From contig CABUTH010000114.1 in assembly GCA_902494465.1 (NCBI GenBank), positions 1 through 6,037 on the forward strand: a stretch of DNA of 6,037 nucleotides. Reading direction: 5' to 3'. Shown one piece after another: positions 1 through 6,037 of the stretch (position 1 is the first letter of the stretch; each line of letters opens with the position of its first letter). The stretch comes from an uncultured Collinsella sp. (GTDB lineage Bacteria; Actinomycetota; Coriobacteriia; Coriobacteriales; Coriobacteriaceae). The notes below the pieces were generated by a model. The model did no database searches. It was not told where the DNA came from and saw only the letters and a list, made by a program, of their open reading frames with translations. Position numbers and translations under genes: made by a program.

Positions 1-1128
1 TACCGCAGAACTTAGCCATTCTATTATTCGTGATATAGCCGCCCGAAACGGTTACGCTGCCGCCTACGGCCATAATGCCGCCACCATAGCCAGGCTGGTC
101 GCTTTCCCCATTGAACGTCGCATTACCCGAAATAACCGCGTCCTTCGAAATGGAAACGTTCGAGCCATTCGAGTACACGCCGGCACCTTTGGGAGCGTAG
201 TTTGCAGCGATAACACCACCGATCAGACTGAGGGTCGATACATTGCCGTTTGTATTAACCATAATGCCCGCACCGGTACCCGAAGTTCCCGTAGAGGCAC
301 CGCATACGTAGCCACCGCTCATATTGACGGTAGAACCGTTCTCGGCATAGATGAGGCTGCCGACATTGCAGCCCTCTTTCTGCGTAAGCGTACCGCCCTG
401 AAGGTTAAACGTGCCGCTCTGGTAAACGTTAATGAGCTTCATCGTGGAGTTCTTGGTGACTCCAACGATTGCGCCCTGAATAGTCGCTTTGTGCTCATAG
501 ATCTTCTCAGTGGTACCTACACCACTTGCAGTCGATTCGGTTACGTAATAGATAAGGCCAGTCGGAATGCCATTCTTGTCATAAGTCATCTTTGCCGTCT
601 TGCCATAATTTTCAGGTGTCAGATGCTCGTCCTTATCTTGCAGCTGCTGGCCGTCGGCAACATCCTCCTGAATGTGCCCAGAGTCCACGTCGTCCACGAC
701 CGTAAGCGTCGCGCCCTTAGCAATATCAAACAGAGGCTTGCCATTACTATCATCGTGCTTAATCTTGTGACCATTTAAGTTCAAGGTGATATTGATGAGA
801 TTGTCGCTGGACTGTTCGAGCCTAATCTCATCGTCATAGTCGATATCGGCCATAAGCTTAAAAGTAGCAGCGCCGGCTCCATCACGCAGTTTCTTGTTAA
901 AGAGCTTTGAGCTCAGCTCTGCCCCGTTGCGAATTTCATAATCTGATTCATTCTCCGCAGCAGGCGCGATTGCGTCTTCACCATTAGTGTCGTCTTCGGC
1001 AGGCTGCTCAGCACTTTTTGCTTCCGTGTCATCGGGCGACAGGCCCGTCGCGACAGCGCCACCAGAGGTCTCGTCGCCCTCAGTCTCGCCGCTATTCAGC
1101 TTTTCGGTATCCCCGTTGTTGGTGTTGT

Positions 1129-1335
1129 CTACATCAGTAGACTCACTTGAGGAACCCCCCCCATCTCAGTTTTCTCGGTAGGAGCTGCCTGGGCATCGTT
1201 GGCAATGGCCTGCGAGATTGGGGGCATGACGAGCGACAGTACCAGGCTCAGCACGGAGGCTCCGCACAAAACGCCTGCCAGTACACGGCACGTCGCTTTA
1301 TTACTCTGCTTAGATTTGTCCGAATTCGCTTTCAT
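1129..1335 (-). CDS. 68-aa signal-peptide ORF: the product of the adhesin locus as sequenced
   Basis: This is what would be translated from the adhesin start with the G8 tract as written: the complete signal peptide, then PTEKTEMGG, then eight out-of-frame residues ending in a TAG at 1129-1131. It is not an independent gene, because its reading continues naturally into the beta-helix frame once the tract length changes. With G7 the product would end sooner, at a TGA after MGGFLK, for 63 residues. The adhesin body has no good internal start: its first ATG (853) lies deep in the domain and lacks a close Shine-Dalgarno. In this state no exported beta-helix protein is expected. Confidence 0.6.
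   Translation of the reverse strand: MKANSDKSKQSNKATCRVLAGVLCGASVLSLVLSLVMPPISQAIANDAQAAPTEKTEMGGVPQVSLLM
1155..1162 (-). repeat. G8 homopolymer tract (C8 on the plus strand), candidate slippage site
   Basis: Eight G on the coding strand follow the ATG of codon 58, in the low-complexity linker just behind the signal peptide. It is the only homopolymer of this length in the gene segment, and it sits exactly where the reading frame must change. G9 or G6 joins the frames, G8 ends at a TAG 24 codons into the wrong frame counted from the tract region, and G7 ends at a TGA within a few codons. Confidence 0.9.
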
Positions 1336-1390
1336 CGATGTCTCCTCCCCAAGAGACCGCGATCTTGCTCTTTCACCATCAAACGTATCT

Positions 1391-2872: not shown

Positions 2873-4153
2873 TTACCGCTTTACGGCACGTTCCAAGTGA
2901 TTGCGTCCAAACAGCAGCAGCGCCGTGGGGACTGCCGTCACGACCATGCCTGCTCCGATGAGCGTCTGCTGCACGCCAAATGTCGACGCCAGCCACGGGG
3001 CAATCGCCAGCGGCGCCACGCCGGCGAACATATTGCCAAAGCCCATGACCGAGTTCACACGGCCGAGTTGCTCGAGCGGCGCCGTCGTTTGCACGATGGT
3101 GTTGTGGAGCGGGTTGACGACACCCCAAGCTATGCCCAGGGCGACCTGGCCGACAAGGGCCACACCCACGTACGGCGTCCCCACATAGAGCAGGCTTCCC
3201 AGGCCCACGGACATAAGTGCCACGAGCAGCGGTTTAAGGTTGACCAGGTGCGGCGGCAAGCGGAGCGCGAGCACGGCACCCAGCACCGCGCCCACGCCCG
3301 AGGCCGACGAGAGCCAGCCCATCCACTCAACGCCGACGCGTAGGACATCGCGATAGAAAAACGACTCGAGCGGATCGAAGGCTCCGTAGCCAAAGTTCGA
3401 AAGAAAAATGATGCAGAAAAGTAGCGCGAGGACGCTGTTGGTAAAGACCGTCTTGATGCTGGCTGCGAAGGTGGCGCGGGCGGACGTGCTGGGGTCGGGG
3501 CTTCGTCCCGCACGCTCCCCTTCCTCTGCCGAATCGGCATCCGCATGCCCGGCGACATGGCTGGCCTGCGGCCTAAAGCCCCAACCGACGACGAACGCCA
3601 GCACAGTAAAGAGCATCATAAGCACGAACACCGCGCGCGACGACGCAGCCGCCGCGACAAAGCCGCCCAGCGTGGGTCCGACGATAATGCTCACGTTTGA
3701 AAACATGGCGATGGCAGAGTTGATGTCTTTGAGCTCGACAGGGTCGTTGGTGAGGTAGGCCGGATAGGACGTGGCGATGGGCTGAGCGAATCCCATCGTA
3801 AAGCCCAGAAACACCGCGCCGAGCAGGACGACGCCGGTCGCGCTACCAAAGGCGATGATTGCCGTGCCAGTTGCGAGAGCGCCGATGATGCTCAGCAAGA
3901 AATGGCGGCGCGGACCCCGGGCGTCGAGCGCCGCGCCGCCCGCAAAGGATCCCAGGATCACGAAAACGTTCATAAACAGAACGGCCAGCGATGTCGCGAC
4001 GACCGAGGCGTTATCCGCATAGGTGAGCGTCCCGATGACGCCGATAAAATAGCTGGTCTGAAAACCGGTGTAGATGAGAAAGCGCATCGCCACCAGGCGT
4101 CTGGCCTGCGCGGACAGCGACGAGCGGACTTTTGGGAATACAGATGTGGGCAT
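2873..4153 (-). CDS. MFS transporter, 12 TM, DHA3/EntS-like (MFS_3 type)
   Basis: A 426-residue integral membrane protein of the major facilitator superfamily, a proton-coupled secondary transporter. Twelve hydrophobic segments can be traced, at about 24-45, 52-74, 85-104, 107-128, 145-170, 173-192, 236-256, 275-297, 306-325, 328-350, 366-388 and 393-415, with a hydrophilic central loop (193-232, His/Asp/Glu/Arg-rich) between the two six-helix halves. The MFS signature A follows TM2 (GGAALDARGPRR, D77 and R82/R83). The IVGPTLGG stretch in TM5 and TTAPLEQLGRVNSV before TM11 resemble the EntS-like exporter branch (DHA3), which moves drugs, macrolides or siderophores outward. The start at 4153 has AAGGAG 5 bases upstream. 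The gene lies between two terminator hairpins, so it is probably monocistronic. Export is inferred from family resemblance only; the substrate is unknown, and a role with the neighbouring glucosidase is not supported. Confidence 0.92.
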   Translation of the reverse strand: MPTSVFPKVRSSLSAQARRLVAMRFLIYTGFQTSYFIGVIGTLTYADNASVVATSLAVLFMNVFVILGSFAGGAALDARGPRRHFLLSIIGALATGTAIIAFGSATGVVLLGAVFLGFTMGFAQPIATSYPAYLTNDPVELKDINSAIAMFSNVSIIVGPTLGGFVAAAASSRAVFVLMMLFTVLAFVVGWGFRPQASHVAGHADADSAEEGERAGRSPDPSTSARATFAASIKTVFTNSVLALLFCIIFLSNFGYGAFDPLESFFYRDVLRVGVEWMGWLSSASGVGAVLGAVLALRLPPHLVNLKPLLVALMSVGLGSLLYVGTPYVGVALVGQVALGIAWGVVNPLHNTIVQTTAPLEQLGRVNSVMGFGNMFAGVAPLAIAPWLASTFGVQQTLIGAGMVVTAVPTALLLFGRNHLERAVKR

Positions 4154-4318: not shown

Positions 4319-4361
4319 AGCAAAAACCACCACAAAGGTGCCTGGCCCCTTTGTGGTGGTT
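4316..4361 (-). terminator. Intrinsic terminator of the 6-phospho-beta-glucosidase gene
   Basis: A 14-bp perfect stem (4325-4338 with 4348-4361; core CCACCACAAAGG / CCTTTGTGGTGG) with loop TGCCTGGCC on the plus strand, followed on the minus strand by TTTTTGCTTTG. It begins about 27 bases past the stop codon at 4389. Over 44 bases (4316-4359) it is identical to the copy behind the MFS gene. Confidence 0.82.

Positions 4362-4388: not shown

Positions 4389-6037
<1,649 letters not shown>

Follow-up and report, generated by a model that had tools for sequence, protein, structure and literature searches.

Background

Poly-G contingency loci are well known in Campylobacter and Neisseria, where the length of the tract sets surface genes ON or OFF. 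The genus Collinsella, of the class Coriobacteriia in the phylum Actinomycetota, is common in the human gut, and the closest described systems come from its own phylum. In B. breve UCC2003, the loci bbr_0113 and bbr_1889 were described as G-tract switches of sortase pili, and the OFF state is argued to lower the downstream pilins by polarity (Penno et al. 2022, PMC9187656). The same paper, in its available part, reports that Illumina sequencing reads G-tracts poorly and that annotated tract lengths differ from those in the population (PMC9187656). In Gardnerella, according to the available part of the study, variation between tracts of 9 and 10 was found between colonies and checked by Sanger sequencing (PMC11287997). 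The initial annotation of the locus studied here held that homopolymer variation is little described in this lineage; as far as the available parts of these two papers go, it has been described in the phylum (PMC9187656, PMC11287997); for the genus, a literature search over the titles and abstract beginnings of open-licence papers returned none on homopolymer phase variation or such pili.

Herein we analysed a window of 6,037 nucleotides from an uncultured Collinsella sp. (assembly GCA_902494465.1, contig CABUTH010000114.1), in which a leader and an adhesin are put out of frame by a run of eight Gs. Our results suggest that this run is likely a slipped-strand ON/OFF switch of a predicted sortase-anchored pilus-tip adhesin, a reading to which we assign a probability of roughly 0.87.

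The tract and the reading frames in the window

As listed in Table 1, the leader ORF and the adhesin frame meet at the tract, and no other G/C run of the window reaches six bases.

Table 1. Features of the analysed window; positions count from its first letter
Feature	Position	Strand	Remarks
G8 tract (C8 on the plus strand)	1155..1162	minus	determines whether leader and adhesin share a frame; from the sequence and the pure tracts of relatives
Leader ORF	1129..1335	minus	ATG at 1335; 68 codons, then stop in the G8 state
Shine-Dalgarno-like GGGGAGGAGA	1341..1350	minus	five bases 5' of the ATG at 1335; read from the sequence
Adhesin frame (linker and ectodomain)	2..1153	minus	384 stop-free codons; truncated by the window edge
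Predicted parallel beta-helix, N-terminal part	2..853	minus	
Cof-type HAD hydrolase	1843-2661	same strand as tract gene	
MFS transporter	2876-4153	same strand as tract gene	
GH1 6-phospho-beta-glucosidase	4392-5837	same strand as tract gene	

The initial annotation had placed a C8/G8 run at 1155-1162 and the stop of the leader frame at 1129-1131, and both positions are exact by the sequence (read on the minus strand in the G8 state, the stop is 1131-1129). Counting the 384 codons confirmed its claim that the adjoining frame has no stop between the tract and the window edge, and its frame arithmetic, by which G9 or G6 restores the frame and G8 or G7 stops early, proved correct. Over the same distance there are 14 stops in the leader frame and 34 in the third frame, with 0 in the adhesin frame. 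In itself a bare G8 run carries no significance, as at least one G8 was present in 29 of 200 dinucleotide shuffles (mean 0.21). Since such a run is not unusual by chance, its significance was sought in conservation among relatives, and there the pure tract at the same codon is more than chance.

The leader ORF encodes a hydrophobic stretch which, judged by eye, resembles a signal peptide, and the Shine-Dalgarno-like GGGGAGGAGA before it is also found in those leader loci of relatives that were read. Searches in Pfam and NCBIfam gave no family for the leader or for the adhesin part of the window, Rfam gave no match in the window, and a promoter scan of the window returned one site, which is not above the number found in shuffles. 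A TATAAT readable as a promoter at 1430-1425 on the minus strand was set aside for want of support.

In the HAD hydrolase, MFS transporter and GH1 genes of the window no tract is apparent. A 33-base hairpin element, CCACCACAAAGG...CCTTTGTGGTGG, occurs in three intergenic copies (1794-1826, 2756-2788 and 4327-4359), and letters resembling it are also present 5' of the leader in a related locus (L041). Moreover, the gap between the HAD hydrolase and MFS transporter genes holds a 21-base perfect inverted repeat with CATCACAACATTCGATG arms and a 23-base loop (2807-2871). These upstream hairpins and repeats prompted the idea of an invertible promoter, which was discarded, as no inversion was noticed in the DNA of relatives as read.

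Tract state among relatives

Of 43 Collinsella genomes, 20 carry an orthologous leader, and the readable set comprises 19 genomes, the match in G033 being excluded as cut by its contig. In ten of the 19, a pure tract of 8, 9 or 10 Gs lies at the same codon. Seven have nine Gs (G002, G003, G004, G008, G031, G032 and G035), and all of these encode a single frame of 1104-1162 codons; G019 and G011 have eight and G006 has ten, and in all three the leader stops after 64-68 codons. Tract length agrees with frame in all ten tract-bearing relatives as well as in the window. This comparison across strains supports the earlier description of the locus as a contingency gene caught OFF, as other genomes carry different lengths, 8, 9 or 10, with the gene otherwise open and intact. 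In addition, decay after a fixed G8, against which that description had been weighed, was not found in the three off-frame relatives (G8, G8 and G10), whose post-tract frames run open for 1031, 1061 and 1010 codons to the anchor, that is LPLSG, a hydrophobic helix and an RRK tail.

The tract is absent in nine of the 19 readable relatives, and given these the switch is not essential to the gene. In seven (G001, G007, G010, G012, G018, G024 and G034) a tract-free linker is in frame, G007 leaving its contig after 167 codons. A third, also tract-free, arrangement of the locus is seen in G005 and G009 (L039 and L037), where a second ORF starts at a GTG that overlaps the TGA of the leader. This second ORF, of 1030 codons in G009 (L037) and 1012 codons in G005 (L039), has a signal-like start of its own and lies roughly 185 bases downstream of the leader ATG.

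As for the window itself, the 4 kb upstream of the ATG together with the leader align best with G004 among the loci of the 19 genus genomes (94.4% over 4168 bases), and the adhesin part has one match in the genome collection, C. aerofaciens L001, with 81% identity in the best segment.

Hundreds of overlapping G9 matches were observed in each of G031, G032 and G033, and G008 contains runs of 20 and 40 Gs (G008:C6:692176-692215, L086). These long runs look like poly-G sequencing artefacts, and the tract lengths in these four genomes are less trustworthy; leaving out G031-G033, the adhesin tracts amount to five G9, two G8 and one G10, with four G9 if G008 is also dropped.

ON and probable OFF forms among database proteins

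A protein search with L001 gave 7971 relatives among the scored candidates, and the best 120 of the 7971 were read for the form of the tract, which was MGG in 61, MGGG in 40 and another linker in 17, the leader being missing in 2. Within these best 120 of 7971, an MGG counterpart at least 99% identical exists for 16 of the 40 MGGG proteins, and three pairs of database proteins differ by one Gly at the tract and are otherwise identical. The MGG form, in frame but one Gly shorter, may be a more stable ON state than the switchable MGGG.

The search for the OFF form was scored on residues 100-1031 alone, which puts proteins with and without the leader on an equal footing in the ranking. It gave 7271 proteins, and the best 120 of the 7271 divide into 92 leader-bearing proteins on 282 contigs, one with another linker, and 27 OFF-called proteins on 58 contigs, all of exactly 981 aa. 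The start of these 27 corresponds to the first start codon that is in frame downstream of the tract in G019, and judging from this start position they are probably OFF alleles. About a fifth would then be OFF, an approximate value that holds for a single allele class among the best 120 of 7271. For eight of the 27, the same best 120 include a leader-bearing counterpart that agrees at each of the 980 residues in common. Moreover, over its 1031 residues the post-tract part of G019 (G8) shows no difference from the leader-bearing P0122 (source name Collinsella sp. TF06-6AC): the post-tract part of an OFF allele can equal the in-frame protein residue for residue. G019 and the source of P0122 may be sister isolates.

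These counts bear on the question whether the G8 was simply miscounted by an error of sequencing or assembly, the true cell being in frame. G runs are prone to sequencing error, trouble of Illumina with G-tracts is reported in the available part of the B. breve paper (PMC9187656), and some related assemblies do show poly-G artefacts, namely the runs of 20 and 40 in G008 and the hundreds of G9 in G031-G033; however, off-frame lengths occur elsewhere too, in two G8 genomes and one G10, and the 27 OFF-called proteins on 58 contigs (best 120 of 7271, with OFF taken from the start position) make error unlikely in general; for the window we regard this explanation as improbable.

There is also a small chance that the frame is bridged at the level of expression, where slippage of the RNA polymerase or the ribosome would yield some full-length product and the tract would tune its amount with no genetic switch involved. 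It would fit a pure run located precisely at the junction of both frames, and transcriptional slippage at homopolymers is known, yet with in-frame encoding in 92 of the best 120 of 7271 proteins and with tract-free in-frame alleles in 7 of 19 relatives, a programmed slip is unneeded. Under the genetic ON/OFF switch that we favour, slippage of this kind could provide a low level of product in OFF cells.

Indels and selection between ON and OFF alleles

In an alignment of G019 (G8) with G008 (G9), which are 92.8% identical over 3.3 kb, there are five indels; four have lengths divisible by three, and the remaining one, the tract, is the sole non-triplet indel in the pair (trailing 1-base indels at column 657/720, which arise from fixed-length cutting, were not counted). 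For the post-tract part, dN/dS was 0.57, 0.30 and 0.24 in three OFF-ON pairs and 0.41, 0.23 and 0.23 in three ON-ON pairs, and the adhesin part of the window compared with G001 gave 0.35 over 377 codons; such pairwise values average the branches of both members and give no date for the frameshift. By these ratios, the off-frame copies look constrained much like the in-frame ones. A plain pseudogene, in which the frameshift is fixed in the lineage and the gene is decaying, would agree with an off-frame window in which the first 384 adhesin codons are all that is visible, but it is very improbable, as a second lesion is absent from these 384 codons and from the three off-frame relatives, dN/dS of 0.24-0.57 in OFF-ON pairs stands beside 0.23-0.41 in ON-ON pairs, and identical protein twins exist in ON and OFF states among the best 120 of 7271.

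The predicted adhesin and its pilus cluster

The product had at first been taken for a beta-helix adhesin, of which the beta-helix was borne out by modelling; it is not a lone adhesin, as in relatives its gene opens a sortase-pilus cluster. In the predicted structure, the adhesin domain of the window forms a beta-helix of stacked beta coils. With VIA-align, the top 50 matches of this model are mainly beta-helix lyases, tailspikes, pertactin and SRRP, and plain Foldseek gave no match for it at E <= 0.001. From the model and VIA-align, the domain is predicted to be a parallel beta-helix. The full-length model of L001 has a middling pLDDT of 67.7, and Foldseek matches it to 3gle and FctB.

The window ends upstream of the anchor, and the anchor, pilins and sortase were seen in relatives. 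There the C terminus of the adhesin carries LPLSG and a membrane helix, an FctA domain (PF12892) lies within the adhesin, and genes for pilins and sortase then follow. For example, the L034 cluster consists of the adhesin, two ORFs with SpaA domains (PF17802), a gap of about 1 kb and then a PF04203 sortase, and in L001 two ORFs with LPLTG are located behind the adhesin.

Taken as a slipped-strand switch, the locus would work as follows. In the relatives, nine Gs unite leader and adhesin in one frame and eight or ten end the leader after 64-68 codons, with the adhesin frame open either way. Slippage in replication would alter the tract length and give rise to ON and OFF cells in one clone. The OFF cells would be without the adhesin, and some downstream pilins would perhaps be lowered by polarity. 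In ON cells, the product is predicted to be exported by means of the leader and joined through LPLSG to the pilus or the wall, with its beta-helix probably displayed to the host or to other bacteria.

Further G-tracts in the genus

Runs of nine or more Gs were catalogued in the 43 genomes, and 20 more sites were read in G002, G003 and G008. In G002, seven of eight tract sites fall within the 5' part of a gene or close to it (a sugar transferase, two Flp-like pilins, BrxA, the CAP protein, the signal-peptide surface protein and the adhesin), the eighth having no clear gene; in G003 this holds for three of eight (BrxA, the CAP protein and the adhesin), the others being not clearly so. In G002, a G9 was observed shortly 5' of a sugar-transferase domain (PF02397) in a gene of the capsule-initiation type (L072), and two neighbouring Flp-like pilin genes (L073 and L074, with matches below the Pfam cut-off) bear tracts of 10 and 11 near the start codon. 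For the sites described below, the pattern searches used exact flanks and allowed any letters in the gap, yet every gap recovered was a pure G run; their counts are lower bounds.

A BrxA gene (PF08849, assigned on the G008 copy) with G9 or G10 near its start and BrxB (PF08747) behind it was found in G002, G003, G006, G008, G031 and G035 (L075, L081, L090, L092-L097). Its tract, present in at least 6 of 43 genomes, has nine Gs in four and ten in two, with the start codon uncertain and the ON length unsettled, and it is possibly a switch of the BREX phage-defence operon. In G031 the BrxA tract is ten and in G035 nine, the two genomes being 96.3% identical over 3 kb there and having the same adhesin tract.

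A CAP-domain surface protein (PF00188) has G9 or G10 directly after a signal-like sequence (L076, L083, L091, L098-L106), in at least 9 of 43 genomes, with nine Gs in seven and ten in two; in the three of nine loci that were read, nine joins the frame and ten breaks it. Another long surface-like protein, which matches no family, has G9 or G10 inside its signal-like sequence (L107-L110, in G002, G008, G012 and G024). The tract of this signal-peptide protein occurs in at least 4 of 43 genomes, with nine Gs in one and ten in three, and at all four loci nine joins the frame and ten breaks it. A further tract of 11 or 9 Gs lies between ORFs with the flanks TTTAATGTG...TACGATATC in differing surroundings (L084 in G003, L087 in G008, L111 and L112). 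It was counted in at least 2 of 43 genomes, with nine and eleven Gs, and is possibly a mobile or promoter-like element.

Altogether, we see about even odds for a multi-locus poly-G phasome in Collinsella, where the adhesin, the signal-peptide protein, the CAP protein, the Flp-type pilins, the sugar transferase and the first BREX gene would switch independently, with MGG as a steadier ON form of the adhesin. In that case, one gut clone would hold cells with varied combinations of surface and defence.

Comparison with known systems

If the switch is real, gene catalogues in which such genes appear as a short fragment plus a leaderless protein give a false picture of the pili of many strains, and an ON/OFF state may be counted as a gene loss when strains are compared. 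Moreover, one design of pilus switch would be common to two classes of the Actinomycetota, and together with the BREX-gene tract of the relatives, switchable phage defence in a gut commensal would become directly testable.

The locus is most similar to those of B. breve, likewise a gut commensal of the Actinomycetota, with the likeness being one of layout and not of sequence comparison. As far as the available part of that paper goes, in both cases the tract, whose length sets the frame, splits an ORF with a signal peptide from the LPxTG part, in the first gene of a sortase pilus (PMC9187656), and pilin and sortase genes lie behind; for Collinsella, this is seen in relatives. The differences are that the present gene belongs to the Coriobacteriia and encodes a beta-helix adhesin, that its tract has 8-10 Gs and those of B. 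breve 10-12, and that slippage was measured in B. breve whereas here it is inferred (PMC9187656). In Gardnerella, the available part of the report describes tracts of at least 8 at genes for surface proteins with LPXTG sites, which is a point of likeness; however, the genes are others, and the majority of the G/C tracts in that genus precede ORFs whereas the present one is in a coding region (PMC11287997).

The contingency loci of Campylobacter and Neisseria belong to Gram-negative pathogens and serve other adhesins, whereas the Collinsella protein is sortase-anchored and of Gram-positive type. With sortase pilins of the FctA/FctB and SpaA types, the cluster shares the FctA domain of its adhesin, the SpaA domains of its two pilins and a sortase gene behind; unlike those pilins, the Collinsella subunit bears a large beta-helix head, as predicted from the model, and a tract at the junction with its leader.
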